Shown piece by piece: positions 4,036 to 27,837 of a stretch of DNA of 30,445 nucleotides. This stretch comes from a virus. The notes beneath the pieces were generated by a model, which saw only the letters and a program-made list of their open reading frames with translations, did no database searches and had not been told where the DNA came from. A program made the translations under genes and the position numbers. The stretch covers positions 1 through 30,445 of IMG/VR virus record IMGVR_UViG_3300032298_000989. One strand, 5' to 3'. Position 1 is the first letter of the stretch. Each line of letters starts with the position of its first letter.

Positions 4036-4833
4036 TCAAATATCAGTTTGTTTAGTAGGACTATATTCTTTAGAATCTTGGAAGAATTCTAAGTTCTCAG
4101 TAAATCCAAAATCATCTCCTAGAGAAGCATCAATTGGATCTGGAGTTACAGTATATCTCATTTCTCTCTTTGCAGTTTGAGTATCAGTACTGGAATAATA
4201 ATCCACTTGAACTTTACGAATGAGACCATCCGTAGTATCTGCAATTGGACCGAAGAGATAAGTTTTAGCAGTAAAATTAAATGTATATATCAGTGCTCTT
4301 CGAGTTGTGAAATCTCCTTCATATTCATCTTGAAAAGAAACACTATCTAATACTACAGGTATATCTTTCTTTTCACCTATAGAATCGATCAAATCGATAG
4401 TGATATTATATGAAGGCTGAAAATATGGTAAAATTTGCTCCACTACCTGTAGAGCGTCATCATTTAGTTTGGTAATTAAATTCAGTTCAAATCCAATATT
4501 ATATGGAACTGGCATATAAACTTTCTTCAAATTTTGCCCATCAGATGCCTTAAATGTTTGGGAAACACTTGCTTTTCTTTGGGAATCATATTGAATAGAA
4601 GTCATCTCAAATGACATTCTTGGAAGAGTAATTTGGATTGGTTTATTTAAATTTGGTTGTTGTTCCATACGAGCAAGAAATTTTTGTATGGGACCATATG
4701 CCAATGGAACTCTCATATCACTTATAGTGGCATTAGTATCATCTTCATGTTGAATATGAATTTCATTAAATAATGACCCAAAACCAAAAATGGTTTTTCT
4801 TATAATTTGGTGATAATAATAGGTTCTTAACAT
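4036..4833 (-). CDS. gp15: Tail sheath stabilizer and tail completion protein gp15
   Basis: 265 residues, close to T4 gp15 (272). In T4 a hexamer of gp15 caps the tail tube and sheath and forms the surface that docks with the gp13/gp14 neck. The N-terminus MLRTYYYHQIIRKTIFGFG, the block DMRVPLAYGPIQKFLAR near 60-75 and the central ITLPRMSFEMTSIQYDSQRK are typical of gp15 in T4-like marine phages, as is VPYNIGFELNL near 130. The C-terminus is acidic and poorly conserved. Its ATG overlaps the gp14 stop by one base (TAATG), so it is probably translated by reinitiation. The order 13-14-15-16 supports the call. Confidence 0.93.
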   Translation of the reverse strand: MLRTYYYHQIIRKTIFGFGSLFNEIHIQHEDDTNATISDMRVPLAYGPIQKFLARMEQQPNLNKPIQITLPRMSFEMTSIQYDSQRKASVSQTFKASDGQNLKKVYMPVPYNIGFELNLITKLNDDALQVVEQILPYFQPSYNITIDLIDSIGEKKDIPVVLDSVSFQDEYEGDFTTRRALIYTFNFTAKTYLFGPIADTTDGLIRKVQVDYYSSTDTQTAKREMRYTVTPDPIDASLGDDFGFTENLEFFQDSKEYSPTKQTDI

Positions 4834-6215
4834 TAGTAATTACCAAATGGATTTGATTCTGAAAAATCTAAAATGAGATTTGCTTCTTCTTGAATCTGAT
4901 CGTTTTCTTGATATTTATCATGCAAACTGTTCATATTGTACATTTTAACTAGATAAGTTGCTGATGATGCTGTACCTACTACTATTTCTCCATCATAAAA
5001 CTCACCATCATTAATAGAAACTTCGAGAATATTTGTATCACTATCCCAAGACTTTACTCTTGCAGTTGTACTGGATATTGATCCAACAACAACCTCATTA
5101 AATTGATAAGTTCCAATTCCAACTAAAAGTGGCGGAGAATCTATCGATAGTAATGGAGCAGATGTAAATCCAATTCCAGAATTTGAAATTAATATTTGCG
5201 AAATTTGTCCATTTGTACCTATTTTTGGAATTGCTGAAGCTCCTATTCCAGGTCCACTTGTGGGTAAACTGATTGAAATATTTGGAGGAATAGCATATCC
5301 AACTCCATTGTTAGTAATATTAATTGTTCCAATACCACTGTAAGTAGTTTCAATACCACAAGTTGCAATTGCTCCAAATCCACCTCCACCAACAATGGAG
5401 ATATTTGGAATAGTAGTATATCCGGAACCGGAATTTATCAATAAAATTTCTTTTATTGAACGAACTTCTCCTTTAATTGTAGTTATTGCAACCGCTTTAG
5501 CATTAACTCCTCCAATAGGAGCATTATCTATGACAATATTAGGAGTTGAAGTATATCCAGAACCATCATTATCCAAATATATTTTTTGTATATAACCCGT
5601 AGATAATGTTGCTTGTGCAGTTGCTGTCGTTGCAACTGATACTAACTGTAATGAAGTAATGTATCCTTGATCTTGTATTGTTTTATCTATTTCATCAATT
5701 GTAGTATCAATAACTTCATCTTCATATTCAAATAATTCACAACTTAATTCATAAACATATAATTTCCCTAACTGATAGAAAGGTTTTTCATGTTCTACAA
5801 ACTTAACTTCAAATAATCTTCGACCTAACGGGAAATAAATCATATCCCCTTCCCTAGGTCTAGTTGCCAATTCTATTTCAGTATCATCCATAGAATCTAA
5901 AAATGGAGAAATAAAATCTTCAAATCGTTCTCTAGAAATAATTAAATTTATTTCATCCTTTAAACTTACTCCAAATTTTGATAAGATATCTCCGGATCCA
6001 GTATATCCCTCATAATTATTCATATAAGCTTCCAATGAGAAGTTATCATCAAATTTTGATGAAGTTACTTCCTTAATAATGGTTTGTTTTTTTATAAATT
6101 TTCTGGGAATATAAGTAATTTCTACCCCATAAATTTTCAATTGTTCATTAATTAACTCTTGAATGAGTCTTTGTTCTCCTGGAGATCCTTGTAAAAAAAA
6201 GGGATTTAGTGCCAT
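4833..6215 (-). CDS. gp14: Neck protein gp14 with an internal GSGY-repeat insertion
   Basis: 460 residues, much longer than T4 gp14 (256). gp14 forms part of the neck that closes the head portal after packaging. Residues 1-185 carry the conserved part (MALNPFFLQGSPGEQRLIQE, YGVEITYIPRK, RPREGDMIYFPLGRRLFEVK, YQLGKLYVYELSCELFEYE). The C-terminus, about 430-460, has QIQEEANLILDFSESNPFGNY-like sequence typical of the family end. Between them, residues 205-365 hold four copies of a Gly-rich repeat (DNDGSGYTSTPNIVID, INSGSGYTTIPNISIV, NNGVGYAIPPNISI, SNSGIGFTSAPLLSID), followed by a further beta-rich stretch to about 425. The extra length is therefore an insertion between two conserved ends. The gene overlaps gp13 and gp15 by one base on each side. 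Confidence 0.94.
   Translation of the reverse strand: MALNPFFLQGSPGEQRLIQELINEQLKIYGVEITYIPRKFIKKQTIIKEVTSSKFDDNFSLEAYMNNYEGYTGSGDILSKFGVSLKDEINLIISRERFEDFISPFLDSMDDTEIELATRPREGDMIYFPLGRRLFEVKFVEHEKPFYQLGKLYVYELSCELFEYEDEVIDTTIDEIDKTIQDQGYITSLQLVSVATTATAQATLSTGYIQKIYLDNDGSGYTSTPNIVIDNAPIGGVNAKAVAITTIKGEVRSIKEILLINSGSGYTTIPNISIVGGGGFGAIATCGIETTYSGIGTINITNNGVGYAIPPNISISLPTSGPGIGASAIPKIGTNGQISQILISNSGIGFTSAPLLSIDSPPLLVGIGTYQFNEVVVGSISSTTARVKSWDSDTNILEVSINDGEFYDGEIVVGTASSATYLVKMYNMNSLHDKYQENDQIQEEANLILDFSESNPFGNY
5120..5605 (-). repeat. Four protein-level GSGY repeats inside gp14
   Basis: Codes for residues about 205-365 of gp14. Each unit runs roughly: hydrophobic strand, (N/D)xGxG(Y/F), x(3), P, x(1-2), I/L-rich strand, then a Gly/Ala-rich stretch. 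Spacing between GxGY cores is about 45 residues. The DNA copies have diverged, so the repeat is clear only in the protein. The same unit occurs in three other virion genes here. Confidence 0.85.
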
Positions 6216-7054
6216 TATCCAATAAAATCGTAAGGTGGAAGTTCATAATCCATTGCCATTCTTGATTTTAATTCTTCAAGTTCTTTCTCCGCATCATCAT
6301 ATAGTTCTCTTCCATTCAGTTCAATTCCACCAGGAAGTTTAACACCTCTAAATTTAATTAAATTCTGACCCCACTGCTTCTTAATAAGTGAAGTTAGATA
6401 TTTTTTAAGAAAACTATCATTATAAACTTTAGTAAAATCATTTGGATCTAAAATTCTATAGCAATCTATAATAAAAAATGTTCCTGGTACTTGGGTTCCC
6501 CAATCAATGTCCAGATACATTCTATTTTGTCTTTTATTAAATCTAATTTGCTTATCAGTTTTCAATAGAAAATCAATATCTTCAAGATAAGTTTTTACCA
6601 TGGCATATTGTAAAAGTTCAACTGAATTAAAATAATACAAATCATTCAAGAATAGTTGATACTTGATACTAAACATACCACCAGAAATATCGCTAGTATC
6701 AAACTTAATAACTTTCTCAATTCCAATAACTGAATCTGGAACTTGAATGAAATTAGAAGTTTCATAGAAATTGAAAGTTGTACTGCCAATTCCACTAATA
6801 TTGGATGTTCCGGTAGTTGTAACTATTCCGACTCCTGTAGTATTTTTTCCTTTTCCTCTATCAATATCTGCTTGAGTCAATTGATATTTTAAGTACATTC
6901 TCTCAACACCGTCAAAGTGCCTCTCATAGAAGTACTGGAGGGCATCGTCCACCAAATCATCTATTTGGTCATCGTCTACGTTAATCTCCAGTACAGGGGC
7001 ACCTAGGCGCCTTAGACAGTAATCTATGAGTTGTTGGCGACTACTTGGTTTCAT
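6215..7054 (-). CDS. gp13: Neck protein gp13 (head completion)
   Basis: 279 residues against about 309 in T4. gp13 joins gp14 in the neck connecting portal and tail. The start MKPSSRQQLIDYCLRRLGAP, the acidic INVDDDQIDDLVDDALQYFY (about 24-43) and FDGVERMYLKY are the hallmark N-terminus of T4-like gp13. Later blocks include YFNSVELLQYAMVKTYL, the aromatic-rich FNKRQNRMYLDIDWG, and KYLTSLIKKQWGQNLIKFRG. The start is supported by a strong GGAGG site nine bases upstream (7064-7068). The first 150 bases of the gene are about 48 percent GC by hand count, far above the rest of the gene. The 61-base gap upstream is the largest gap in the window and carries a weak late promoter match. Confidence 0.94.
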   Translation of the reverse strand: MKPSSRQQLIDYCLRRLGAPVLEINVDDDQIDDLVDDALQYFYERHFDGVERMYLKYQLTQADIDRGKGKNTTGVGIVTTTGTSNISGIGSTTFNFYETSNFIQVPDSVIGIEKVIKFDTSDISGGMFSIKYQLFLNDLYYFNSVELLQYAMVKTYLEDIDFLLKTDKQIRFNKRQNRMYLDIDWGTQVPGTFFIIDCYRILDPNDFTKVYNDSFLKKYLTSLIKKQWGQNLIKFRGVKLPGGIELNGRELYDDAEKELEELKSRMAMDYELPPYDFIG

Positions 7055-7063
7055 TGACAGGTC

Positions 7064-7068
7064 CCTCC
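7064..7068 (-). promoter_or_regulatory. Ribosome binding site of gp13 (GGAGG)
   Basis: A full GGAGG on the minus strand with nine bases to the ATG at 7054. It is one of the few strong Shine-Dalgarno sites in the window; most genes here have weak sites and rely on coupling. Confidence 0.8.
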
Positions 7069-7076
7069 ATCTATTA

Positions 7077-7662: not shown

Positions 7663-7855
7663 TTTTTTCTAGCAATTGTTTTAATAATAATTTTATTTCA
7701 CCCAATTCATTTTTTAAATTTATAATCTCTTTTTTTTGAGATTCCCTGCTATTTAATGAATTCACGTATTGGTTATATGAAATTTGATCATAATTAATTA
7801 TAGCACCAGTCTTCTCATCTCGGTATAGGTTGGGATGACCTTCAACTTTTAGCAT
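7649..7855 (-). CDS. Small conserved phage protein with C-terminal coiled coil
   Basis: 68 residues. The first half, MLKVEGHPNLYRDEKTGAII, has a 'GHxNLYRDxxTGAI' signature that I recall from many small proteins of marine T4-like phages. The second half (QKKEIINLKNELGEIKLLLK) has heptad spacing of Ile/Leu and is probably a short coiled coil, so the protein may oligomerise or act as an adaptor. Its ATG overlaps the stop of the 2283-residue structural gene by one base (TAATG), which points to coupled late expression and a structural or assembly role. No enzymatic motif is visible. Confidence 0.75.
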   Translation of the reverse strand: MLKVEGHPNLYRDEKTGAIINYDQISYNQYVNSLNSRESQKKEIINLKNELGEIKLLLKQLLEKNGSI

Positions 7856-10800
7856 TATCTTATTGCAATGGATCTCAAATCTTTAATTCTAGGTGCATAT
7901 GCTTGATCAGTTCCAGACATGACGATCTTAATTGTATATCCAGAAAATTCTTCAAGATTATTAGCAGTATATTGATATTCTAGAAATTCATCATTAACAC
8001 TTGAAGGTACAAATGCATCAGGTTTTCCATCATTTTTGGATGGATCAGTTACATTGTCAGGATATCCATCCCCATTTGTATCCGTGTTTAAATTATCATA
8101 ACCTGGGAAAAGTTCAAAAGTAGGTTGAACCTCACTTGAATCGGGTCTAATTAAGCTATAAAGGACTCTAAAATCGGAAGATGAATGACGGTATCCACTA
8201 AGAATTACTTTAAGTGAAGTAGCATTTTGTGCTAATTTAACAGTATTTGAAACATAAATTGCAGAATGTGGATCATAGAGTAGAGAATTTACATCATTAT
8301 CAGACGCATAATCTGAAATTGGAGAATTTAATCTATTACTATGCAATTCAATGGAAGCATTATCACAGAACAACATTGGAGATAGGTTACTATCTTTACT
8401 GCTCAATGTAATACCGGAAGTAAATGATTTATTAGAATTTAAATAAGTTATTTCATTAACCTTTGAGCAAATAATTCTAGTAGAATTTAATTTGTTCAAT
8501 TTATTTAATTGTACAGATTCAAATCCATTATCATTAAATGAAACTTCAGATCCATTTACACTGGTCCCACTAACAGTTTTGATTTGAGCAGATGCGGAAG
8601 TAGTGGATCCAGGAGTTATAATCTGATATGAGGGAATAATTGAATCATATTGAATATTTTCAGTAGCATAAACATTATTTCCTCCTAATGTAGATTCAGA
8701 TGTAAATGATACTTGTGGAGTAGTTCCATCAGAATTTCTAGAGGTTCCATTTAATGATCTACCAATTTCCAAATAATAACCATCTAAAGTAATATCAAAA
8801 TCACTAATATCATGAGTAGTATTAATTCTTCTTAATGACATTCCATTCAATTCATACTTATAAACTAAATCTGAAATTGAATGTGATGAAGAAAGTGTTG
8901 AATCTTGATTTCTAATGCAAGTATTCAAAGTCCCATTACCCACACCTTGATAACCAATAATTTCATTATTAATTTTTACATACCCAGTATTTCCTCCCCC
9001 TACAGCAACTCCTTCAAATGTTCCAAAATTAGAAGTATCTCCAATTGCAATTTGAGTATCTCCAATTAATACTGAAGAAGTAAGTACTGCTGGAGCATAA
9101 CTAGATTTTACATCACTTATCACCAATTTATTATTTTTTGCATACATTCCGTGATTAAAATGATTAACTCTCAAATAATTTCCAGAATATTCATTTCCTT
9201 GAGGTGTTATGTATGTGACAAGAGTGGATGCAAGACTTACAACTGAACCTGCATTATTATAATAACTTAATCCATAACCAACTGAACAAACAGATTCACC
9301 CTGAACACCTGAAAGATATAGTGTATCTAAACCAGTAATTGCAGATACTGTAATTTGTGCTCCAATTCCAGTTGCTCCAGCACTTGCAGTAGTTATTCCA
9401 ACAATATCACCAACTGCATATCCAGTTCCATTATTAACTGTGGAAATTCCTGAAATTTGTCCGGAGCCATTAGCAGTAATATTGAGAATTAGACCAGATC
9501 CATTTCCTGAAATAGCATAAGTTGTTACATTTGTAGATGAGGTATAACCCACTCCGGTAGTAGTAATACCCAATGTGGAAACAGAACTTCCAGTACCAAC
9601 AATATAACCATAAGATACATTTCCTCCAACTTTTCTTCCAACACTTAAATCACTAATTAAAGTAGAATTTGTAGTAGTTTGTATACCAATTTTTAATTTT
9701 CTTGGAAAAGTTGTCAATGGATTTTGATTTAATTTCTTAACATAACCATTACTTTCATCTAAAGTTGGATTGCTAAAATAAACAGTTCCACTAGTAGAAG
9801 TAAATTTAGATTTATATAATTTAAATTTCAAATCTTGATAATCATTTGCTGACCATTCGGAACCATTTTGGGATTTATACAATCTTCCTAAAGCAAATTG
9901 TCTAGTATATCTAACACTTTCAGCATCAGGAAGATTTTTTGTATTTACCGTAACTTTACCCATTTCAGCAATCCATAATTCATATTGATCAGTTGTTGGC
10001 GCTAAAATTACAACTGCATATTGATTTCCTGGGGAAAGATATATGGGATAATCAAATGTCACTTTAGTGGCAATTGAAGCATCAGATGAAACTTGAATTT
10101 GATCTGGTCTTAAAGTTACGGTATTTCCTATCACAGTTCTAGTTGGAGTTCCGAGTTCAACTGTCCTTATTTGGACATTAACTGGATTATTTCCACTATC
10201 CTTATGTGCAAAGAACAAATCAACAGCAGTTACAAATACACCATTTGCATCATCGTTTGAACCATTAGAATCTGGTGCCTGACCAATAGTACCACCAACA
10301 CTAAATGACTGTGCTAGAGGATCAACAAAATATTCGGTTCTAGTAGTAGTTTTATTTAATTGTTTTACTTCCAATACACCTTCAGATTTATATTGTGCCT
10401 CAGCAGAAGAAATTAATTTACTTCCTGGTAATGGAGTTTCATTAGTAGAACTTGAAGTAACTTTATAAGTTTTAATTCCAGTACCAATTCTTATCGGAGG
10501 GGCAGGATTAGTATTTGGATCTCTTAGGAAGAAAGTACCAATTAAATCTCCATAATTATCCGAAATCAATCTCAAATCTTTAACATATGCCACAGCACCA
10601 CTAGTTTGTCCAACCAGCTTCATAGATCTTACTAGGTATCCAGAATATTTTCCTTGTGCTTCTTCTGACAAGGAATAAGTATCAATATTTAAAATTTTAC
10701 TGGAAGCACTATATGAAGAGGTAAGATTTTCTGATTTGATATATGGATTTATATTATACGTTGTTGTTGGTGAATTATATTTACCATACTTATGATTTGC

Positions 10801-13800
10801 AGTTGCAACTCTAAATTTAATTAAATTGCTTCCATCATAAGATCCAATTACAGTCTCCCCAACTTGGAATGCTGTAGATGCTCCATAATTTTGTAGTGTA
10901 GAATCTGTTGCAATTTCTACTAATTTTGGAATAAAATCTACAGAACTATTTCCATCGAAGAATTGATAATATTGAGTCAGAGGTTTAATATTTGTAACTG
11001 AAAATTCAGTATTCCTAGATCTCATATAAAGTTCGGAACCACTGGAAATTAATATATTATTAGTGGAAACATCAGTTGTCCAATATAAAGTTTGTCTAGT
11101 TCCAGTTGCTCTTACCCAAATATGTCTTTCCTGTTCAATAATTTTATCTTCCAATTGGATAGTTCTTACCCAACTATCATTTTCTGGGGATAATTTAATA
11201 TTTCCAGTGTACTGAATTACATGGAATGGATTAACATTTTCAACATCTGTCGCTAATGCTTGTTCAATCCAATCAATAGAATCATATTTTAAAGTAACCA
11301 CATTACCAGTTTTTTGAACATTTGAATCAAATAATGAAAAATTAGTAGAAAGATCTAAGTCTTCATCATTTACATTTACTGCAGGTACTAATTTACTCTT
11401 AATTGTATTTTTACTGATAATTGGTCTTAATTCTTTTGCATCAGCATCAACTTCAATTTGGGAAAATTCTGAGTTAATTAATGCAGAATTTTTAAAATCA
11501 TCAACAAAAAATCCAGTCTTAAATCTGTTTAGTCCTGCAGAATCTAAAACTTGTAAAGTCTGTGTATTAACTTCTAATAATGATAAAGAAGTAGTTTTTT
11601 CTAGATTATCTACTCTATGTTCAATATCTCCAATATCTCTCATAGTATATCTTCTATTATCAACCAAAGATAACCTAGCATGTGCCGGATCATATAAGTA
11701 TGGTGGTAAAGTAATAGTTCCAATATTCATTACCTCATCCACATTAATTGGAGGTTTTGGGATAAGGGAGGAAATACCTTTTGAAACAACTAAATTTCCA
11801 AGTTTATCTAGATATAATCTATCAATTCTTCCCAAATAGTATTCATATCCAACAAAAGAACTTTCATTGGGGGAAAGAATTAATTTTGGATCTCCATTGA
11901 ATGTTCTAGATGAAAAATCAAAAGGTGATGATGTAGTACTCGAAAAAACAGCAACTCTAGGTCTAAAATCTAAAGTATCAGATGCTCTTATATTTCCGGA
12001 ACCAATTGAAGGTATATCCTTTTCAAATCTTTCTTGCTGATAACTTAATACGGTAAATACATCTCCATCATTATTTGAAGTTACTGAATAATAATCGAAT
12101 ACAATCAAAAGTTTTTTGGAAGGTTCAGTAGCACTCTTGTTACGAATGATCTTGGAATAATCATAATACTGCTCTTTCTGTCCTTTATCTAGAGTATAAT
12201 TATTAGTCAAATTATTATACTTACCTACAGTTATAGTATTAATTTCAGTTTTGATATTAGAATCTTCAAATACGACAGATTCTCCAATTAAGAATTTATT
12301 AGTATTCAGATATACAATTCCTAAAGTATCAGTAGAAGTATTAGATACAACTCTAGCAATTGCTTTACTAGTATTTCCAATAATATTTTCACCAATAATT
12401 GCATTCGTACTTACATTTGCGGTAGAAGTAAATTTAACAGTATCTAAAACTGGCGCCGAAGTATCTAATGACTCATAGACTGCAATTACTCTTACCACAT
12501 CCGGATAATTGAGAGAAATTTCTTCATCTTGAACTCTCAATCCATAAAATTTATTATAAGTTAATCCATCATTAACTGTAGAATTATTTGAACTTCCAGA
12601 TTGTGGATATTTTGATAAATTTACTGAAATTGATTGACTTTTAGTATAAGTTTTTACTTTGCTTTGCGTACCATTTTTGACTAATGAAGTATTCACAACA
12701 ACTCCAGATTGATTTGTTGCAATTCCACTAATAGTTACAGTATTATTATTGAGAACAAATTTATCGGAAGTTAAATTTGCAGTTGTTCCATCAGAGTAAT
12801 GGACGGAATATCTTTCAATATTGAATGGTTGGAAAGAACAACTCGATATTCCAGAAATTTGAGCAAGTGTAAATGATAAAACACCACTAGAATTAGTAGT
12901 CTCTCCAGTAATTTGATATGAGAATGATAAATTTGAATCTCCTAAATTTACTGAAGAAACATTATCATTTGGAAGTTTTGCATATAAATATCCATTCTCT
13001 TCATTTGTGATTTTAGGAGTTCCAGAAGCATCCGCTATAAATGCGATAGGAAACCCAGTTGAAATCGCCTGGTATACGGATTTAATATCCTGAGAACCAT
13101 ATACGACTATTTCTTTAATAGTTCTTGGTGTAATTTCAACACCATTAATGAGTATTTGTTCACCTCGGATAAAAGATCCTGAAGTTTGTCTGAGACTAAT
13201 AGTTGTAGATCCTCCACCATTAGCAGTTGCATACCCACTTGCACCACTACTTTTACCTTTTACAAATGAAGTTATAGGTAATTCACCATTAGAAACACTT
13301 TGGTTTAATGTTAAAGATGTATATGTTTGAATGTCATACAAATACAAATTCCAATCACTGGAAGACCCTGTATATGCAGAATCTTTTACATTAAAAGTAT
13401 AAACTCTAGCATCTCCAATTTTAGTTCCATTTGGAGTAGTTGTTGAATTTTTTAACCCATTATATAAATCTATAGATGCTTTAGATTTTGGAGCACCTGT
13501 AACATTATTAACCTGCAAGTTATTCCCCATCAGAAAAGGAACACCTTCACTTATTACTGATTGAGTATCTCTTGGTTTTTTTACATCAATAATAGTGGTT
13601 CCGGTTTTTACTATATCATATCCCCTCACATATGCCTTTCCAGGAGATACTTTTACACACATTAGATCATCAGAGGGAGTTTCTCCACCATCAGTTTTTT
13701 CAGTATCAAAAAATAATCCATTATTTCCCAATCTATCGTTCAATGAATTATGAACTGAAACTTTAAATGGATCTACGGAATAATCGCCAGATTCATCATA

Positions 13801-14706: not shown

Positions 14707-14711
14707 TTCTT

Positions 14712-16284: not shown

Positions 16285-19200
16285 TCAAAGAGTCTTTCTT
16301 AAAGAACCAGTATTTCTTAATCCATAACCTCTTCTTTGAATTGTTGGGAAAGTTGATAATCCAACATCTACAGTATTTCCAGTTACTCCGATAGATATGG
16401 GAGAACTAGATCTAGTAAATCCCGACAATTTACCCCAAGAAAATTCTCCAACATATAGTCCAGAAGTTGAAAGTCCTATAGTAGATGTTGTGGATAATAT
16501 ATTACAAGTAACTATGCCAACTGAACCATTAAGAGAATATGCACTAACATTGTAGATATTATCGAGGAAAGTAGTTCCAATTCCTACTATAGAAGTATTT
16601 GAATTATAAATTGATGTAACCCCCTTTCCAATGTTAGTATTAAAAATATAAATTGGATTTCCAACAGTTAATGTTTCTGTGGAATTTAAATAGAATTTTA
16701 ATGCTAGAGGTACTCCAATTCCAGTTGAAGTAGTTATTCCAGTTACAATTCCGGAAGATCCTTCAATTGAATTTATATTGGTTATTAATTCAACAGATCC
16801 AATTGCATCAGTTGAAATACCATTAACAACTAGAGAATCAAATTTTATAGGAGATTGATTTTCATAATGGAAAAACTGTGCATCATCTACAAAAATTTTA
16901 TCATCAGTGGTAGAAAAACTGCCAATAATTTTTGCGGTTGGATAAATCATAGATTCTATAGAATCTCTAGTTTTGTAAATAAATTGTTCATTAATTTTTT
17001 GATCTCTTTTTTGTTTAGTCCAATTCAATGGTCTATAATTTATAGAATCAACACCTTGATTATCATATAAATTAGTTTCCAATGTATCTGATGATGCTAT
17101 ATTATAAATTGTACGGAGATTTTGTTCTGGTGTTGATCCTGTTGAATTTTTTAATAGTTTAATTTCATCACCAATTTTAATAGTTTCCCAAATATTAGAA
17201 TCCGCTTTAGAATCAATATCTCTAGATCCTCTATAAAAGAAAATTGAAACTTTATCTTCATATGATGGAGCAGTAGTAAAGGTAAAAGTTGATCCTCCAG
17301 TAAATTCGTATGCTGATCCAGGTTCCTGAATAACTCCATTTATGAAAATTAATAATAGTGAATTAAAATCTATTCTTGAATTATCATCTTTTTGGAAACT
17401 TAGTAACAATGAATTATAATTTAATGGGAATGTTACTCTTGTGCCATTTTGTAAATTTTCAATTGAGTCAATATAATCAAGTTCACCAAATTGCCATGAT
17501 GCAAATGAATCATTAAATGTATCTAAAACTTCTAATTGGAATTCTTGTAATGGTGAGGAAATACCTCTAGCAGTAACTAATCCTACAGGTTTAATTATAT
17601 CCCCTTTATTAAAACCATACCCAGATCTAGAAATACTAAATTTGGAAATTTCAAATAAAGTAGATCCAATTCCAGTTGTTGAACTTGCCCCAACACTTAA
17701 ATTGAGTAATAATCCGGTTCCAGTTTGAGTAGTAAGTCCAATTCCTAATCTTGAAACCCCAATTACCGGTAAATTACTATATGAAGGTGAAGGAGTGATA
17801 ATTACTGGGTTCACATATCCACTTCCACCATTAACTACTGTGAATGCTAATGTTCCCCCAGCACCTACGGATGCAGTAATAACGGCATTTGTACCGGAAG
17901 TTTTACTAAAATCTGTGATTCCAATGGAAACATTTCCATAATATCCAGACCCTAGAACATCAGTAGTTCCTAAACCAACAGATATAATAGATCCTCCAGA
18001 AACTACTGCAGTTACAGATGCTCCAACTAATGGTGCATATCCAAGTCCAGTAGTAGACCCTAAAGATACAATTAATCCACCTCTTGGAAGTTGATTTTGA
18101 TTAACATCATCTACCGATCTAATAATACTTCCATTTACTGAAGTTATTCCAGTAAATACTATACTAGATATTCCAACATTAGTATTTTCAATAATATTAA
18201 AGTTGTTGTTGGTATTATTTTGAGTGCTAGGAGATTGGAAAATATTATTTAAAAATACTATTCCATTTCCTCCACTTGTTCCTAATCCAACTGTATTGAT
18301 TCCTCCTACAGTTAATGAATAAGTTTGTCCAATACCAGTAAATTTATCTGAAATATTATCATATAATTGATTAGTACTATAATCCTGCCTTAAAAATACT
18401 CTTCCACTAAACTCAGATTTTTGATATGAAAGATTACTCGAATTTAATAAATTTCCAGTATCTCCAGTTGGAGGTTCAGTAAAATAAATTTTATTTCCAG
18501 TTATATTATAAGATCCCCTATAAACTGTAACAGTAGTTGAATCTGTATGTGAAGTTGCAGAAGAACCGACAAAACCTCTAGAAACTTGAACCAATAAATT
18601 AGATCCAGTATTACTAATAGGACCAACATTAGTTGTTCCTAATCCAACATTAACAACCTTAACATATTCATTTTCTATTTTAAGAAGATCTTCCGATCTT
18701 ATAGAAGAAATTCCACTTAATTTAAATATTTCACTAGAATCACTTATCTGTCCACCATTACCAAATAAAGTATACGATATTGGAGTATATGTAATTGGAT
18801 ATTGTATGAGATTATCTAAAGTAATAATGGTTCTTTCAAGTTTCTTCTCCATTTCTAGTTCATGAGCATTACCTTCACCGTAAGAAGTGAAAGTTACGCA
18901 TATTCCACTTAAAGCATTACTTTTAGTAGTAGATAATTTAAATGTATCATCAGAAAGTTTGTGAACATATACTGTAGATGGTAGTATAGTTGAAGGTCCA
19001 ATAAGAAGAGAAGATTGTCCAATTCCAATGAAAGTTGATTTTGGAGTATAGGTAATTTTTTCCCCATCACTGAAGAAATGATTTACCAAAGTAAATTCTC
19101 CAGTTACTGGATTTAATACTGATGAATTGGTTGGATTAAATACTTTTTTAAATATTGGATAACCACTGTAATTTAAATCAAAATATGTTTTTTGAAGTCT

Positions 19201-22200
19201 TAATCCATTTATAGAATTATATTCTACAATATCATAAGAATTTGTTAATGTACCAAATGTTAAATCTTCAGGTTTATTAACAATATCACTTTGCTTATAA
19301 AAAATTTCAGTAAATAATTTAGTAGTTACAATTCCAGAAATTCCAGAATTTGGATAAAATTTTAAAATAACATTTGATCCCGAATATTCTCCACCAAAAG
19401 TACCAATACCATTCGTACTTCCAATTGAAAGAAATGGATATTGTAGAGTGGAAATATTTGTATTATCATGTACCAGTGATACTTGATGTAATGCACTAGT
19501 AGATCCTATACTGAGTTGAATTGTGGATTTTAATGATAAAAATGTAGTACTATCAAATGAAAATATAGTTGATATTCCGGAAATATTTCCATGTGAAGAT
19601 GAATAAATTGAAGTTCTTTCTGCACCATCTAATTGACCATTAGTTTTAAATCTATAAGTTCCAGATCCAATTGCAGTACTGCCAAATCCTACAATTTTTG
19701 ATCTAATTCTGACAGTATTATTTGAAGTATTAGTATAAGTTAATGAAAGAATACCAGAAGATATAGATGCTCCAAAAGATCCTATAAAATTACTTGAGAA
19801 ATTATTTGAAACATAATTAGAATCAATATAATATTCGGAAACATAAGGAGTATTTCCATCATGACTTAAATATAATTCTACAAAATTCATTTCATTTGTA
19901 GTAGAATTTATAACTTGAATATTTGAATATAGCGAAGTAAATTTATTCGATTGTACGGAAATTATAGATGATGTTAATCCAGAATTGATATTTAAATTAG
20001 ATCCAGTTAAGTTTATAAATCCAATAGAAGTAGTACCAATACCTGCAGAATTGGTATTAAAATTATCTCTAAGTATTTTAATATCATAATCTTTATTATA
20101 TTGATCAATTGGAGTAAATTTTAAAAATGAACTTCCAGTAATTTCATCAACATATCCAGAAATATCCGAAATTTTATATTCAGTATTTCCAAGATATGAA
20201 TTTTCAATTGTAAATAAATTATTTCCATCATTCAATACAGTTACTTCAGACAATTGAATCTCAGATTCATCGGTATTTAAAACCTGCACTAAAAATTTAT
20301 TATAAGTATCGGATGGTAAAATTTCGATTAAATTATTTTGATATGAATCTAAACTTCCACTATTTGAAAATTGTGAACTTATATCATCAATTTTTAGTAC
20401 TCTATTTGTTACACAATTAATATACGGTATGAGTTTTTTATTTTTTAATGATATGAATTTTGATTTAGAATCATAAGTATTCAAATCTCTACCTAAATCA
20501 AAATTATTAATAGTATCAACTCTTTTCTCATCAAAAATATCATAAACTTTAGTTGCTATACTACTAGATCCAATTCCAACCGAAACCGTTGACATCACTT
20601 CAGTATCAGCAAAATTTTTGAGACCACTGGTATGTACTAAATTATTGACTGGAGTAATTAATTTATCAAATGTAATAGGACTTTTAATCGCATATGAAAG
20701 ATTCTGATAATAATCATTATCAGAAATAACTTGATGATCTTCATCTAATTTACCAACATCATTAGACCATCCCAAATTCTGTTTTGAAGAATAATTTACT
20801 TCAAATTGTCCATAAATTTCATTAATTGTATTAATTTTGGCAATGGTCCCAGTTTGAGATCCCCTAATACTTTCCCCAACGGATAAATCATAAGAACCAA
20901 AAACTTTAATAAATGAATTATTACTAGATACAATATAAAGATCCCTTTCAACAAATAAATTACCACTTTGAGTATAAATTTGTTCCCCCTCACTAAAATA
21001 TGAATAAGTCAGCGTAACATTAAATTGGGGATAATTTTTATAATTTATAATATTAGCAAAAGATTCTTGAGCAGTTTTTGCTATTCCTGGATTTGTAGTA
21101 AGACCCGCAACACTATATTCTAATTTTGCTGGATTAGTATTAGTAAAACTAGTAATGGTAAAGAACTGATATTCATAATCTTCTGAATTAAATCCAGAAC
21201 CATCAGTGCTAAATTTTTGAATTCCTTCAACAAAAATTTTATCTCCACTTTGGAAAGGTGGAATAGTAAATGCATTAATTGGTGTAGTGAGATAGCATGT
21301 TACTATTCCAGAACTAGAAGATTCAATTGTATTAATTGGTATTCCATTCGAATTATTAATTGTAAAAATCTCAACAGTTGGTGGAAGACCTTTTGGATTA
21401 TCTAAAATATTTGTAGAAGTAATTGAATTTGATGTAATAACTGCTTCAATCAATCCTCCATTGATTTTTTTTCTAGTATCAGAATCAATAATGATCAAAT
21501 CTGGCGCTTCAATATAATTTTTTCCACCAAAAATAACTTCAATATTTGAAATGGTATTCGAAGAATCTATTATTATTTGTGGAGAAATATATGCGGTAGG
21601 TCTTAATGTTTTATCGGAAGAATATTCATAAGATTCATTGGTAATTTTAATCTGATTTATCTTTCCAATTTGATTTGATTTTGGAACAATATATGATCCA
21701 CTACCATTTATCGATTCTACACCAGTTATTGTGGGAATATTTTTGTAATTTAATCCAGAAGAAAGAATTTTAACTTTATTGATTGAACCATTAGCAGTCT
21801 GTGAGTTTGTGGAATACTTCAAAATATCACAACCACTCTGAACATAATTTAATTTTTCTGGAGTTTTTATCAGAGAAATTTCGAAAGTTGTTGTACCTAC
21901 ACCAGATATTTTATAAGATCCAATATAATCACTATCTACAAATGTTATTTGAGATCCGCTAGAAACCTCCCTATCAGAAGTACTAATATAACCAGATTTT
22001 TCTAATGCATAAAATAGATTTGTTGGAAGATCTGAAGTATATTTGAGAGTCAATGATGCATTAGTAGAAACACCTACACTACCAATACTTAATATTGATG
22101 CTGTTGAATTTGTTCCCGTAGATACAAATTCATCATTAAAAGTTTCATCATAGAATAACTTAAAATTATACCCATTCAATGTGGTATCACTCAGATTAAA

Positions 22201-25200
22201 TACCAAATCATTATTTTTTATTACTGAAATTTTTGGATTAATAGGAGAAATTTGTTGATATTTGCCACCAGTAGAAGCAATACTTACAATGGTTGGGGGA
22301 TTTTTTTTAGAATCAATATAAGTTTCAGATAGTTTTAAATTATTATCATCAATTTTATAAACATAATATGATCCAGTTGAAAGTCCCGATGCAGCCAAAT
22401 CTGTATATGAATATAAAATTTTGTCCCCAGTATTCAAATTATGAGAATTAATTGTTATAGTATTTGATGAAGTATTAATCCCAGTAGAATTAAATCCTAA
22501 TGGATTAATTATTAATTTTTGTTTTTGTGAATTAAATTTAACATATACAGAGGATGAAGTTCCAATACCTACAGATAGATTTGGATTAACTACTAAATCA
22601 ATCTGATCACCATTGGATAGATTATGGGAAGTAGAAATAGAAACTGTAGATTTTATTTTTTCTATTTTTCCAGTTACTTGTTCATAATTAGATTCTAATG
22701 AATATTCATAGTCATTAGATCCTGAAGTTAAGAAAAATAACTCTGTAGAAGTTAGTGAAGTTTTTATACCTATAGTATCTTTAGTTTTTTTGTTAATATA
22801 AATTTTCTGAAAATCTCCTGTTAATGGTAAAGAAAATGGAGATTGTCCAAATATTGCATTTACTAAAAGTGCAGAAGTACCATTTGGTTTTCTGAGGATA
22901 ACTTCTTGGTTAGTTGTAAATGGATGATTCTCAATATAAATTGATTGAGTTGGAATTTCTCTAGTGAAAGTATTAGATGCAAATACAAAATTAATTGAAG
23001 TTGATACTCCTATACTAGATCCAATACCTATAGATTGAGTTGGATTAAAAAATACCTTATCATTTACTTTAGAATCAAAATATTCAGTAGATTCCGAAAT
23101 AATGAAAGAATTTGGAATAAGATTTATGGGAGTTGTGGTGCTATGAGATATGCCAATAGAACCTCTCTTAACTCTCAGAACATTAGAAGAATTGAAAATA
23201 TTTAAAACTGATAAAGTTTCATTTTCTATAGTAATAGTACTTCCAACTGATACTGACTCGGGAACTTGAGTAACATAAATATCCGTCACAATCCCTACAC
23301 TTGCGGGGAGAGTTGATGATAATGAAACTATACTATCAGATATAATATTAATTGTATGTAATTTGTTTATTTGACTCAGTGAAGTAGTCAAACCAGAAAT
23401 AACTATATTATCACCAGAAGATAAATTATGATAAGGTAAAATAGTTATTTGGATATTATTTCCATCCTTTCTAGTGAAAATAGAATTTTGGTAAGTTTCA
23501 ACTGTAGTATCTACACTTACTATTTCCTTTCCATATAAATTTGAAACAATTGCATCTAGTCCTCCCCCACCAGTATTAGTATTATCAACTATTAATCTAT
23601 CATTTATTTTATATTGATCTCCTCCGTCAATAATTTTAAATGATTCAACACTACCTTTAGATACGGATTCTATAATTGATTTTCCATTTATTACTTCATT
23701 AGATTCAAAAATAAAATCATTACCAGCATATTGATCACTTACTTTGTAAGGAAATGTATTTCTAATTAAAGTAGAATTATTAAAATCAAAATTTTGATTT
23801 AAAGTATAATTATCAGTAATGTAATTTGATCTATAAGTATTTCCAATAAAATATGGAAATGTGGAATTTAATTCGGAATCAATTGTTGCAAAATATGCAT
23901 ATACTCCATTTGGGAATTCTGGAGTTTTTCCAAATCTTCCATTATTAGAATCTAAATTATTGTAATTTACGAATGAATAGTCCTCTATAAAGAATCCAGA
24001 ATTGAATCCTGACGGTCTATTAGTAATATTTGAAGTATTTAAAATATAACCTGATACTAATCTAGTCGTTGAACTTGTATCCCATGCACTAGAATATCCG
24101 TATGGTCCATAAATTGGATTTCCATCATATGCCCATCCAATTATTGGTGAATGTCCAGTAACAGTATTTGGGTCATCAAAATAATTTTTTAAGTTTGGAG
24201 AATAACCACAAACGGAATATTGTAAATTATTTTCAGTTTGGCGTAATATCTCATCTCCAAATCTGTAATGATTGTTTACAGTTAAAGATCTAACATTTGA
24301 ATTTAAAATTGCATTCAACCCAGCAGAAATAACTTTAATAGTAGTGTCATTTTCATTATAATTTATTCCTGGATTAATAACTACAACTTCAGATATTTTT
24401 CCATTTGTAATGATAGGTCTTAATACTGCACCAGATCCAGTACTGGAAACTGTAACTAATTCTGGAGTAGAATAATATTCAATTCCACCATATTGAACAT
24501 TAACGGCATCAATTTTTCCGTTTATAATAATTGGAGTTAAATTGGCATTAGATCCATTTTTTATGGTTATAATTGGTTTTTTATGTAAATTTAATACTGT
24601 TGATCCATATTCAGTACCAGATTCATATAGGTACATATCAACGATACTTCCCCTAACAATTGGTGTTGAAGTTAAAGTATTTCCAATTCCAGAACCAATA
24701 ACAGAATATTTAACAGTAACTTCAATATCTGGATATTTAAATATTTGATACCCACTTCCAATTGAGTTAAAATTTACATATTTTTTCCTATCATAATTTG
24801 ATTTATCCGTTCCACCAATACCTGCACTGGATAATTTAAATGTATTATCATTTATTTTTATTACATAATATTGATTAGAAGTTGATAATCCAGATATTGG
24901 AGTAGTTTGATATTCATATGCAATTAACTCCCCATCATTGAAATTGTGATTTTTGTATGTAACTGTATTTTCAGTTATCGATATTGAGGATGGATTTACA
25001 ATTAATTTTCTATTTTCATATCCAACTCCACCATCTAAAACTTTAATTTCGGCAATAGTATTCTTTTGGGAAACAGTTTCAAATTTATGTATGCCAGTAG
25101 TATTAGAAGTAGTAAATCCAATAGTATTGATTCCAGATGAGTAATTTACTAAAGAATTGTATAATTTAATTGTTTTACTATTTACTATTTGGGGATAATA

Positions 25201-27837
25201 TATTGTACCATCTTGTAATGTCGTATTCTGATCTAAATTAGATCCACCAAAATTGCCAATTCCAATTTCAAAATTTCCATTTGAGTTATAAACAATAGGA
25301 TCTCCATTTACAAGTTTATGATCCGTTAGGAAAGTTAATGTTTCTGAAATTACATCAATTCCCCCAGAATTTGTACTTTCACGAGCATCAAATTCAAGTT
25401 CTCTTCTTTTTTTCTGTATAATTGGTTCAAATACTGCACCAGAACCATTTCCTCCAGTAATTGCAATTGAAACTACACTATTAACCTCAAATTCTTGTGG
25501 ATCAACTAAAATTTTATCTACAGATCCTCTAATTACTGGTTGAGCAAGTGCAGTCGTACCATTACTAGAACTTATAGAAATTTCTGGTAGATTAATTACA
25601 TCGTAACCTGTACCACCATTTAATACTTCTATTGATTCTAATGGACCATAATAAATTTTATCTTCGGATTTATAATTTAAAATCTCCACACCATTGATTA
25701 ACATTCCAGTAGAACCTGGAATAGTTAATTCACTAGTTCCATCTTGAATATTACTTTCAATTGGAAATTTTTTTAATAATTTTTGTGGTCCAATTGTAGT
25801 ATCTTTTTGTGAATATAGAGTAAAATAATGTTCTCCAGAATTTTCTGGTAGTGGTTTAAATGTTACATATTGATTACTTCCAATAAATGATGGAGATGTA
25901 TATAATTTTATTTGATTTGGAGAAGATTGAATTTCGACATAATATATTCCAACAGATAATCCAATAATTGGAGTTAATTCTGCTTCATAATAAATTTTAT
26001 CGCCAGTAATAAACGACAATGAATTATCCACAAATGAAATTATTGACCAATCTTCTGTAGTAGAACTGTATCCTCGAATTTGAATATTTGCTGTTGCATC
26101 ATTTAAAGTGTAACGAATTACATTTTTAGATATTGTATATGATGGTAAGGAATTAAATGCAACATATAAACTAGAGTCATCTAGATATACATTTTGAATA
26201 TCTGATGTTACTGTATTATTTCCAAATATAATAGGCACAATTGAACTTGAAGAAGTATTAATTCTTCTTCTTATATCATATTTTTCATTTGTGTTTGGAA
26301 ATCCTAAAGGAAGTCCACTTAAATTTCCTAAAGTAATTTTATTATCTTCAATTTTATCTACATATGGAATATTTTGAGTGGATTGTTGTATATTTTCTGT
26401 ACCACGCTCTAAAATATCAACAAAATCACCTACTTTGATACTAGATTTATCGGGAGTACTGTATAATACAAAATCAGTACCACTAATAGATTTAACTTGA
26501 TATCTAGTACTTGTGTTATAAATTAAAGAATTGGATAAAATTTCTTTTTTATCTTTGCCAGTATTTTTAATTACTTCCCCAATATTTTTCACATAAATTT
26601 CTTCACCTTCAGACGTATTGTAATTCTCTGTTGATGGAATAAATTCGGATAGTACTCCAGTAATTCTTAGTTTTACTATGTTAGAAGTATTTCCATTTCC
26701 ATAACCATAGTAATATTCATCAGATCTTACAATACTGGCAGATGGAATACCTGATGATGGAATTGAAGTACAACCAAAGAATTGATTGATAGACTTACTA
26801 GTATATGTAATAGTAGTACCATCATAAACTATTTTTCCACTAGATGGAAATCCAATTGTTGAATCGACAGTAATTACAGAAGAATTTGCAGAAATAACTC
26901 TTGTACTTGGAGTTATATTAAATGTTCCTGTTACTGCAGATGAATTATTATATCCAATAAACAGAAAAATCTTATGATATATTCTTCCTTGATGAGACAT
27001 AATCTGAACATCTGATACAGATGCATTCGTATTTAAATCAGTCGATTTTACTATAGACTGACCAATAAGATTAATTGGATCACCAGAAATTGCTTCTGCT
27101 ACTACGACTTCTCTTCTTACATAGTCTGCAGATGATGGTTTATTAAGTAAATTTTCCAAATTTACTATGTTTGGAGTTACACCATATAAAACATTAAACA
27201 AAATTCTGAAGGATTCATCAGTACCTTTTGACTGATAAAATGATTTTGCATTCTTAATAAAATTACCAACATTTAAATCGGAAACAAAATCAAGATCTTC
27301 AAGTCCTGGAGTTAAAGAATATTTGAGTTTTTTATAAAATTCTTTTAAAAATAGTGTACTAAGATTCTGTACAGATACACCATTTGAATGAGAATTTGAA
27401 ATTGAAGTAGAGAATACTAATTCTTCCGGATTATTAGATCTATGATAAGAAGTAATTCCACTAAATCCACGAATACAACCTGTAAATGTATTTGTAGTGA
27501 TACCAGTATAGGTAATTATTTCATCATCAATTTTAATCAATCCATATTTGGAAGGAAATCCTTTAGTACTAGATACAGTAACAATTCCAGAAGTTGGAGT
27601 AATATTTCCATTTAATGAAGTAAATCCTACCACTACTTCTGGAGTAAGATTGTCAAGTTTGAGATATTGATCTAAATTCTCTGCAATATCAGTTGGAGCT
27701 CCTTGATATTCCTGAGAAATATAATACTGTTTTAAAAATTCTACAGTATTGGGACTTTCATCTAATATGAATTCAGGAAGTTGATTTTCAATTATCTGCT
27801 GTACTTTAACTCTAGTTTCAAATCCAGTATGAATCAT
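16285..27837 (-). CDS. Giant repeat-rich baseplate-region structural protein (gp7 position)
   Basis: 3850 residues, almost four times T4 gp7 (1032), in the gp7 slot between gp6 and gp8. The start at 27837 has AGAGG five bases upstream, and the ATG is one base past the gp6 stop. The N-terminus (ETRVKVQQIIENQLPEFILD, VEFLKQYYISQEYQG) is conserved in large structural proteins that follow gp6 in marine T4-like phages. Four module types recur: 'GFP...IDDEIITYTG...CIRG' (about 92-129, 329-362, 1536-1569, 3049-3099); GSGY repeats (about 739, 937, 1079-1156, 1409, 2027, 2107, 3299-3409); 'HNLxxGD...YYVxKIDDNxxKLS' (about 616, 842, 962, 1469, 1741, 1799, 2919); and a YHYH-like domain at about 1180-1320. 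Near 3497-3535, FINGVIQEPGSAYEFTGG resembles a T7-fibre-type beta domain. A baseplate or arm role is inferred from position; homology to gp7 is not shown. Confidence 0.7.
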   Translation of the reverse strand: MIHTGFETRVKVQQIIENQLPEFILDESPNTVEFLKQYYISQEYQGAPTDIAENLDQYLKLDNLTPEVVVGFTSLNGNITPTSGIVTVSSTKGFPSKYGLIKIDDEIITYTGITTNTFTGCIRGFSGITSYHRSNNPEELVFSTSISNSHSNGVSVQNLSTLFLKEFYKKLKYSLTPGLEDLDFVSDLNVGNFIKNAKSFYQSKGTDESFRILFNVLYGVTPNIVNLENLLNKPSSADYVRREVVVAEAISGDPINLIGQSIVKSTDLNTNASVSDVQIMSHQGRIYHKIFLFIGYNNSSAVTGTFNITPSTRVISANSSVITVDSTIGFPSSGKIVYDGTTITYTSKSINQFFGCTSIPSSGIPSASIVRSDEYYYGYGNGNTSNIVKLRITGVLSEFIPSTENYNTSEGEEIYVKNIGEVIKNTGKDKKEILSNSLIYNTSTRYQVKSISGTDFVLYSTPDKSSIKVGDFVDILERGTENIQQSTQNIPYVDKIEDNKITLGNLSGLPLGFPNTNEKYDIRRRINTSSSSIVPIIFGNNTVTSDIQNVYLDDSSLYVAFNSLPSYTISKNVIRYTLNDATANIQIRGYSSTTEDWSIISFVDNSLSFITGDKIYYEAELTPIIGLSVGIYYVEIQSSPNQIKLYTSPSFIGSNQYVTFKPLPENSGEHYFTLYSQKDTTIGPQKLLKKFPIESNIQDGTSELTIPGSTGMLINGVEILNYKSEDKIYYGPLESIEVLNGGTGYDVINLPEISISSSNGTTALAQPVIRGSVDKILVDPQEFEVNSVVSIAITGGNGSGAVFEPIIQKKRRELEFDARESTNSGGIDVISETLTFLTDHKLVNGDPIVYNSNGNFEIGIGNFGGSNLDQNTTLQDGTIYYPQIVNSKTIKLYNSLVNYSSGINTIGFTTSNTTGIHKFETVSQKNTIAEIKVLDGGVGYENRKLIVNPSSISITENTVTYKNHNFNDGELIAYEYQTTPISGLSTSNQYYVIKINDNTFKLSSAGIGGTDKSNYDRKKYVNFNSIGSGYQIFKYPDIEVTVKYSVIGSGIGNTLTSTPIVRGSIVDMYLYESGTEYGSTVLNLHKKPIITIKNGSNANLTPIIINGKIDAVNVQYGGIEYYSTPELVTVSSTGSGAVLRPIITNGKISEVVVINPGINYNENDTTIKVISAGLNAILNSNVRSLTVNNHYRFGDEILRQTENNLQYSVCGYSPNLKNYFDDPNTVTGHSPIIGWAYDGNPIYGPYGYSSAWDTSSTTRLVSGYILNTSNITNRPSGFNSGFFIEDYSFVNYNNLDSNNGRFGKTPEFPNGVYAYFATIDSELNSTFPYFIGNTYRSNYITDNYTLNQNFDFNNSTLIRNTFPYKVSDQYAGNDFIFESNEVINGKSIIESVSKGSVESFKIIDGGDQYKINDRLIVDNTNTGGGGLDAIVSNLYGKEIVSVDTTVETYQNSIFTRKDGNNIQITILPYHNLSSGDNIVISGLTTSLSQINKLHTINIISDSIVSLSSTLPASVGIVTDIYVTQVPESVSVGSTITIENETLSVLNIFNSSNVLRVKRGSIGISHSTTTPINLIPNSFIISESTEYFDSKVNDKVFFNPTQSIGIGSSIGVSTSINFVFASNTFTREIPTQSIYIENHPFTTNQEVILRKPNGTSALLVNAIFGQSPFSLPLTGDFQKIYINKKTKDTIGIKTSLTSTELFFLTSGSNDYEYSLESNYEQVTGKIEKIKSTVSISTSHNLSNGDQIDLVVNPNLSVGIGTSSSVYVKFNSQKQKLIINPLGFNSTGINTSSNTITINSHNLNTGDKILYSYTDLAASGLSTGSYYVYKIDDNNLKLSETYIDSKKNPPTIVSIASTGGKYQQISPINPKISVIKNNDLVFNLSDTTLNGYNFKLFYDETFNDEFVSTGTNSTASILSIGSVGVSTNASLTLKYTSDLPTNLFYALEKSGYISTSDREVSSGSQITFVDSDYIGSYKISGVGTTTFEISLIKTPEKLNYVQSGCDILKYSTNSQTANGSINKVKILSSGLNYKNIPTITGVESINGSGSYIVPKSNQIGKINQIKITNESYEYSSDKTLRPTAYISPQIIIDSSNTISNIEVIFGGKNYIEAPDLIIIDSDTRKKINGGLIEAVITSNSITSTNILDNPKGLPPTVEIFTINNSNGIPINTIESSSSGIVTCYLTTPINAFTIPPFQSGDKIFVEGIQKFSTDGSGFNSEDYEYQFFTITSFTNTNPAKLEYSVAGLTTNPGIAKTAQESFANIINYKNYPQFNVTLTYSYFSEGEQIYTQSGNLFVERDLYIVSSNNSFIKVFGSYDLSVGESIRGSQTGTIAKINTINEIYGQFEVNYSSKQNLGWSNDVGKLDEDHQVISDNDYYQNLSYAIKSPITFDKLITPVNNLVHTSGLKNFADTEVMSTVSVGIGSSSIATKVYDIFDEKRVDTINNFDLGRDLNTYDSKSKFISLKNKKLIPYINCVTNRVLKIDDISSQFSNSGSLDSYQNNLIEILPSDTYNKFLVQVLNTDESEIQLSEVTVLNDGNNLFTIENSYLGNTEYKISDISGYVDEITGSSFLKFTPIDQYNKDYDIKILRDNFNTNSAGIGTTSIGFINLTGSNLNINSGLTSSIISVQSNKFTSLYSNIQVINSTTNEMNFVELYLSHDGNTPYVSEYYIDSNYVSNNFSSNFIGSFGASISSGILSLTYTNTSNNTVRIRSKIVGFGSTAIGSGTYRFKTNGQLDGAERTSIYSSSHGNISGISTIFSFDSTTFLSLKSTIQLSIGSTSALHQVSLVHDNTNISTLQYPFLSIGSTNGIGTFGGEYSGSNVILKFYPNSGISGIVTTKLFTEIFYKQSDIVNKPEDLTFGTLTNSYDIVEYNSINGLRLQKTYFDLNYSGYPIFKKVFNPTNSSVLNPVTGEFTLVNHFFSDGEKITYTPKSTFIGIGQSSLLIGPSTILPSTVYVHKLSDDTFKLSTTKSNALSGICVTFTSYGEGNAHELEMEKKLERTIITLDNLIQYPITYTPISYTLFGNGGQISDSSEIFKLSGISSIRSEDLLKIENEYVKVVNVGLGTTNVGPISNTGSNLLVQVSRGFVGSSATSHTDSTTVTVYRGSYNITGNKIYFTEPPTGDTGNLLNSSNLSYQKSEFSGRVFLRQDYSTNQLYDNISDKFTGIGQTYSLTVGGINTVGLGTSGGNGIVFLNNIFQSPSTQNNTNNNFNIIENTNVGISSIVFTGITSVNGSIIRSVDDVNQNQLPRGGLIVSLGSTTGLGYAPLVGASVTAVVSGGSIISVGLGTTDVLGSGYYGNVSIGITDFSKTSGTNAVITASVGAGGTLAFTVVNGGSGYVNPVIITPSPSYSNLPVIGVSRLGIGLTTQTGTGLLLNLSVGASSTTGIGSTLFEISKFSISRSGYGFNKGDIIKPVGLVTARGISSPLQEFQLEVLDTFNDSFASWQFGELDYIDSIENLQNGTRVTFPLNYNSLLLSFQKDDNSRIDFNSLLLIFINGVIQEPGSAYEFTGGSTFTFTTAPSYEDKVSIFFYRGSRDIDSKADSNIWETIKIGDEIKLLKNSTGSTPEQNLRTIYNIASSDTLETNLYDNQGVDSINYRPLNWTKQKRDQKINEQFIYKTRDSIESMIYPTAKIIGSFSTTDDKIFVDDAQFFHYENQSPIKFDSLVVNGISTDAIGSVELITNINSIEGSSGIVTGITTSTGIGVPLALKFYLNSTETLTVGNPIYIFNTNIGKGVTSIYNSNTSIVGIGTTFLDNIYNVSAYSLNGSVGIVTCNILSTTSTIGLSTSGLYVGEFSWGKLSGFTRSSSPISIGVTGNTVDVGLSTFPTIQRRGYGLRNTGSLRKTL
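17600..17960 (-). repeat. GSGY repeat cluster near the C-terminus of the giant protein
   Basis: Three units at about residues 3299, 3336 and 3409: DVLGSGYYGNVSIGI, VVNGGSGYVNPVIIT and SISRSGYGFNKGDIIKP. The last keeps the 'GxGY/F...GD' form also seen in the DUF4815 protein. Confidence 0.7.
23880..24290 (-). other. YHYH-like domain within the giant protein
   Basis: At about residues 1180-1320 the protein reads GHSPIIGWAYDGNPIYGPYG, preceded by NLQYSVCGYSPNL and followed by GRFGKTPEFPNGVYAYFAT. This AYDGxPIYGPYGY core is the conserved part of YHYH-type domains found in secreted and phage structural proteins; the literal Y-H-Y-H motif is not evident, so the site may be altered. Confidence 0.65.
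24350..25640 (-). repeat. GSGY repeat cluster in the N-terminal third of the giant protein
   Basis: Units near residues 739 (VLNGGTGYDVINLPEI), 937 (VLDGGVGYENRKLIV), 1079 (YESGTEYGSTVLNL), 1119 (VQYGGIEYYSTPELV) and 1156 (VINPGINYNENDTTI). A 'GSGAVLRPIITNGKISEV' type linker joins several of them, and similar linkers occur before the first unit (GSGAVFEPIIQKK). Confidence 0.72.

Follow-up and report, generated by a model that had tools for sequence, protein, structure and literature searches.

The window analysed here, a stretch of 30,445 nucleotides that covers positions 1 to 30,445 of the IMG/VR virus record IMGVR_UViG_3300032298_000989, encodes several virion proteins in which a short Gly-rich unit recurs. 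The initial annotation ascribed these copies to one module shared by four unrelated proteins, spreading by recombination and possibly decorating the virion surface. This raises the question of whether the copies form a single family, how they came to lie in these proteins, and what they may do there. The reading that we prefer, with a probability of about 60%, is an old in-frame insertion of one beta-rich repeat, here called the GSGY repeat, followed by vertical descent, with the arrays probably serving as exposed decoration in the style of Ig-like domains.

One repeat family in four virion proteins

According to Pfam and PHROGs, the structural genes of the window all lie on the minus strand in a T4-like order:

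4036-4833, minus strand, gp15 (Pfam/PHROGs)
4833..6215, minus strand, gp14 neck or head-closure protein, 460 aa (Pfam T4_neck-protein, 1.8e-30; PHROG 460)
6215-7054, minus strand, gp13 (Pfam/PHROGs)
7855..14706, minus strand, DUF4815 or VriC-like virion protein, 2283 aa (Pfam DUF4815, 1e-63; PHROG 358)
14712..16253, minus strand, gp8 baseplate wedge protein, 513 aa (Pfam Phage-Gp8, 9.6e-14)
16285..27837, minus strand, giant gp7-like baseplate wedge protein, 3850 aa (PHROG 2885, E 0)
27839-29737, minus strand, gp6 (Pfam/PHROGs)
29739-30140, minus strand, gp25 (Pfam/PHROGs)

Three of the repeat hosts match distinct Pfam families (T4_neck-protein, Phage-Gp8 and DUF4815) and the P-SSM2 orthologue of the giant protein is annotated gp7, so that the description of the hosts as unrelated is correct as far as tested. 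The virus is of a marine cyanophage type; among its closest named relatives, judged by gp8, are the Synechococcus phages S-SRM01, S-T4 and S-SKS1 and the Prochlorococcus phage P-SSM2. Alignment of gp14 to its counterparts in T4, LIMEstone1, S-PM2 and S-RIM2 divides the protein into a T4 gp14 core (aa 1-179), a four-unit array (aa ~190-378), and a conserved VKSWD domain with a C-terminal helix (aa ~380-460), and the two units of gp8 fall, by alignment, within an insertion relative to T4 gp8. The giant protein also contains a YHYH domain (aa 1223-1322, window 23872-24177; Pfam PF14240, E 6.7e-25), which is flanked by two GSGY arrays.

A seed HMM built from the four gp14 copies alone matched gp8 (i-E 1.3e-5) and missed the giant and DUF4815 proteins, because a seed of four sequences is too narrow. 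In contrast, the profile obtained by iteration over 170 loci and reference phages (43 columns, consensus GSISSITITNGGSGYTSAPTVTISSPPSGGTGTGATAIAEIVT; unit of about 39-43 residues) cross-detected all four proteins. It recovered four units in gp14 (E 7.5e-16 to 1.2e-11), seven in the giant at E<1e-3 and ten at E<0.1, two in gp8 (9e-10 and 0.003), and one clear unit (2.9e-4) plus a marginal one (0.12) in the DUF4815 protein. The seven remaining proteins of the window had no unit below E 0.1 by the same profile; among 100 sets of shuffled proteins none gave a match at E<1e-3, and the mean was 0.21 matches per set below 0.1. The repeat is thus present at the sites where it had been noticed, and the counts first given, four in gp14 and about ten in the giant, hold. 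The units are:

5475..5597, minus strand, gp14 unit 1 (aa 207-247; HMM E 7.5e-16)
5346..5459, minus strand, gp14 unit 2 (aa 253-290; HMM E 9.6e-15)
5214..5333, minus strand, gp14 unit 3 (aa 295-334; HMM E 1.2e-11)
5088..5210, minus strand, gp14 unit 4 (aa 336-376; HMM E 6.8e-15)
9337..9462, minus strand, DUF4815 unit, NNGTGYAVGDIVGI variant (aa 1749-1790; HMM E 2.9e-4)
9493..9585, minus strand, DUF4815 marginal unit (aa 1708-1738; HMM E 0.12; G..Y conserved in the orthologue alignment)
15501..15599, minus strand, gp8 unit 1 (aa 219-251; HMM E 9.3e-10)
15441..15488, minus strand, gp8 unit 2 (aa 256-271; HMM E 0.0028; 4.1e-6 with a broader profile)
25531..25647, minus strand, giant unit (aa 731-769; HMM 2.9e-9)
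24406..24519, minus strand, giant unit, central in the tandem triplet aa 1063-1178 (aa 1107-1144; HMM 2.2e-7; AF2 strand pattern)
24310..24402, minus strand, giant unit (aa 1146-1176; HMM 5.8e-5)
23539..23655, minus strand, giant unit downstream of the YHYH domain (aa 1395-1433; HMM 2.6e-8)
21694..21789, minus strand, giant unit (aa 2017-2048; HMM 8.4e-5)
21478..21555, minus strand, giant unit (aa 2095-2120; HMM 1.5e-4)
17782..17844, minus strand, giant unit (aa 3332-3352; HMM 6.4e-4)
17866-17952, minus strand, weaker giant unit adjoining the preceding one (aa 3296-3324; HMM 0.044)

Both the position and the Gly-x-Gly-Tyr of the clear DUF4815 unit are kept across the aligned orthologues (n=31), and the Gly-x-Gly-Tyr positions of giant aa 690-1200 are likewise conserved (n=26). 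Comparison with PHROG profiles agrees independently: 17 virion families are matched by the gp14 array on its own and 18 by the consensus; those matched by the array comprise head closure, baseplate wedge, hub/lysozyme, fibre and other structural proteins. Annotation is lacking for many of the large virion proteins of T4-like cyanophages, through which the GSGY repeat recurs. Naming the repeat allows the 17-18 PHROG families to be taken as hosts of one module, not as related proteins, and cautions that the cross-hits among them reflect a common insert, not common ancestry.

The fold was predicted by AlphaFold2 (AF2) with orthologue alignments for gp14 and for giant aa 690-1200. The pLDDT was mostly 80-95 over gp14 units 1-4, and the giant model had a mean of 84. 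In both models, compared by strand pattern, the predicted unit consists of three strands in a long-short-long arrangement (E208-219, E226-229 and E240-248 in gp14; E419-427, E437-441 and E449-455 in the giant, where pLDDT is mostly 80-95). The units are short, and several of those in the giant, together with the DUF4815 units, are weak by sequence and near the detection limit, as would be expected if a beta-turn motif N-x-G-x-G-Y had simply recurred in Gly/Ser-rich proteins by convergence. We consider such convergence very improbable, since the profile covers the full 43-residue unit, no shuffled match fell below 1e-3, a single period holds across phages and bacteria, and the two modelled hosts have a single strand pattern. 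The GSGY units of the four window proteins are one homologous repeat family, cross-detected by the profile beyond chance, and the PHROG cross-hits and the common predicted strand pattern agree with the single shared module that had been proposed.

The GSGY repeat is apparently uncatalogued. The consensus had no match in Pfam, NCBIfam or PDB, and no Ig-type Pfam model reached an E below 1; the unit profile had none in PDB; and the motif was not found described in the literature searched. In Foldseek searches of PDB, the gp14 model matched solely the T4 gp14 core, with no confident match for the repeat array, and the giant model gave no confident match; against BFVD, many cyanophage structural proteins were matched. 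The segment TISTPGSNYAVGDKITV of T4 gp18 (about residues 105-122 of the open frame, L169) is similar to the unit in its GD variant and is the top T4 match to it (E 0.01 among 30 ORFs). It may thus be a distant relative whose structure is known, which we offer as a lead rather than a claim; a PDB-wide profile search did not recover it.

Descent of the copies within and between genomes

T4-like phages recombine readily, and the copies in the window genome might accordingly be exchanged or homogenised among the four genes, as the initial annotation implied in calling the module mobile. The four genes do share units, and homing endonuclease genes adjoin gp14 in S-SRM01 (between gp14 and gp15; L082 32514-33041) and in S-H34 (between gp13 and gp14; L173 19314-19967). 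However, the relationships among the units make ongoing exchange hardly tenable. In the viral and reference set for the four genes, the nearest neighbour came from the same gene for 637 of the 644 units and from the same genome for one. In a diverse set (160 units, 17 genomes), 131 units had same-gene neighbours, against 67.6 +/- 6.5 when gene labels were permuted within genomes, and again a single unit had its neighbour in the same genome. On a unit tree (n=153), gene labels changed 37 times versus 73 +/- 2.8 after shuffling, and genome labels changed 119 times versus 119, which is the chance level; the tree, being built from short sequences, must have poorly resolved branches, but the three measures concur.

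Position is preserved together with gene. Among the four-unit gp14 proteins (n=78), 303 of the 312 units match the equal position in another phage, and 272 still do so after close matches are dropped. The positions do not converge, as the similarity is 53.4 among units within a gp14 protein versus 52.9 between proteins, and the similarity of units from different genes is about equal within and between genomes. The units cluster by gene and position; therefore, the fixation of each set in its own gene preceded the divergence of the phages. Neither concerted evolution nor exchange is evident in the sampled clade, the orthologue sample being weighted towards close relatives of the window. The proposed spread by recombination among the copies of the window genome is thus refuted: units group by gene and position, not by genome, and copies of one genome do not group across genes. 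At long range, the idea of a mobile module stands, with gp14 carrying 0-8 units and with presence and absence in tail-tube and sheath proteins.

The gp14 proteins of T4, LIMEstone1, S-PM2 and S-H34 have no units, those of S-RIM8, S-RIM2 and ACG-2014i have two, and those of the window clade have four; Sf-FS3 has five, L161 six and S-CAM9 eight. In the proteins that were aligned, the array is flanked by the T4-like core on one side and by the conserved VKSWD domain on the other, and the arrays of S-RIM2 and the window occupy one common site. The giant protein has 16 units in the portion of S-RIM8 read and 19 in the portion of syn9 read. Meanwhile, the sheath of S-PM2 carries one unit, in a non-conserved stretch of the sheath alignment, and the other sheaths compared carry none. 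According to the reading that we prefer, a homologous beta-rich unit of ~39 residues would have been inserted in frame, as a cassette, at tolerant and probably exterior sites of virion proteins over phage history, the hosts being neck gp14, baseplate gp8, the gp7-like giant, DUF4815 proteins and fibres, and the sheath and tail tube of other phages. The cassettes would then have multiplied in place; in the window lineage the insertions would be old, and every copy has since been inherited vertically with its own gene and position.

Two observations on individual relatives may be added. The two additional units of the six-unit gp14 of L161 (aa 357-447) bear no close likeness to its own array or to any sampled source, so that neither a recent tandem duplication nor a recent transfer is supported for them. 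In Sf-FS3 (L171 11720-19144), carbamoyltransferase, sugar-kinase, epimerase and prolyl-hydroxylase-like genes are located just upstream of gp13-gp14.

Insertions in tail tubes and sheaths and the possible role of the repeat

In lambda-like tail-tube proteins of Pseudomonas phages and prophages, exactly two units are present in L190, L222 and PseuP_224 and none in D3 and SC_8, the proteins with and without them having an overall identity of 64-67%. The Pfam TTP_11 match spans the insert, and the solved relative 25vd_A is without it. This distribution in the aligned sequences would fit insertion or deletion alike. The sheath of Escherichia coli phage ECO1230-10 has an insert of two units, which lies at residue 135 in the alignment to the pyocin sheath. 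Tail tube and sheath both show two units, and a two-unit cassette is therefore likely to be the transferable piece; two consecutive units are probably the smallest cassette that folds and can be transferred. BLAST searches of phages with a synthetic consensus and of plasmids with the L190 cassette gave zero matches, where the low-complexity filter may hide copies, and the L190 cassette DNA had no match in E. coli genomes. Being present or absent at one site in orthologues, and occurring in several unrelated virion proteins (17-18 PHROG families, sheath and tail tube), the GSGY repeat is a promiscuous insertion module of virion proteins.

Ig-like domains on phages protrude from the tube exterior and have been proposed to contact cell-surface carbohydrates (PMC8718954). 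Those of lambda gpV, T5 pb6 and SPP1 gp17.1* (Big_2, Big_1, FN3) are, like the GSGY repeat, small, beta-rich and found in unrelated virion proteins, and both kinds of element are present or absent between relatives and occur on the tail tube. Unlike them, the GSGY repeat belongs to another sequence family, with no significant Ig/Big Pfam match, and forms repeats of ~39 residues inserted within proteins, whereas the Ig-like domains are C-terminal. The sections of PMC9230969 consulted describe extra sheath domains that sit at a distance from the tube and for which a part in adhesion or stability has been proposed; types 2 and 3 are beta-rich additions on a conserved core. The GSGY cassette in the sheaths of ECO1230-10 and S-PM2 is such an added segment. 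In the same sections, the additional domains are mostly described as Ig-like sandwiches, and the GSGY repeat is not named among them. Carbohydrate-binding modules of 936-group lactococcal siphophages are similarly accessory and occur at several sites on the virion, among them the neck passage structure, but they are recognised CBM folds (PMC6669499), and the GSGY repeat has no CBM match.

By these analogies, the role of the module would most likely be that of the Ig-like accessory domains: a rigid decoration, exposed on the virion, which makes weak, repeated contact with cell-surface polymers and/or stabilises neighbouring subunits. Surface decoration is plausible because of the tail-tube and sheath insertions, and the arrays of the window virion may likewise be surface-exposed, with a binding or stabilising role. 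The main rival to the decoration role is that of a structural spacer or scaffold, in which the arrays would add length or stiffness to neck and baseplate proteins and take up space in a larger tail, with no external binding. It accords with the high confidence of the folded prediction, with the 19 giant units in the portion of syn9 read, and with the suggestion, in the part of PMC9230969 consulted, that extra sheath domains stabilise the tail. Nevertheless, we hold it to be unlikely: relatives can do without the inserts of tail tube and sheath, and for this reason an accessory role suits the repeat better than a needed spacer. The lambda-like tail tube and the pyocin-like sheath provide natural pairs, with and without the insert, for testing the role of a decoration domain.

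The repeat in bacteria and archaea

A scan of genome contigs yielded at least 219 loci with the repeat, a number that reflects breadth, not frequency, because the loci were retrieved with the consensus as query. Among the matches listed, these loci belong to Verrucomicrobia, Planctomycetes, Bacteroidota, Chloroflexi, Proteobacteria, Actinomycetota, Firmicutes, archaea and others. The phage-built profile found units in all 80 of the loci retained, with a period of ~37-41 residues and a maximum of 23 units in one protein; for example, a Methanoperedens protein (L212) has 23 units and an Omnitrophota protein (L227) has 14. Some of the loci in cellular genomes are prophage tail tubes (L190, L250), and others encode large proteins. 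These large bacterial and archaeal proteins are like the phage hosts in unit and period, but differ from them in being cellular and, in some cases, in having Cu-oxidase_2 or fn3 domains. It is tentatively suggested, at slightly less than even odds, that the GSGY repeat is an undescribed and very widespread adhesive or stabilising beta-repeat common to the virions of phages and to large proteins of bacteria and archaea, which might constitute a second promiscuous decoration family beside the Ig-like domains and might have passed from cells to phages, or the reverse, as two-unit cassettes. Separately, a DUF2589 protein of Kordia aestuariivivens (L184 3767-4618) carries a two-unit GSGY segment in the middle of the protein.
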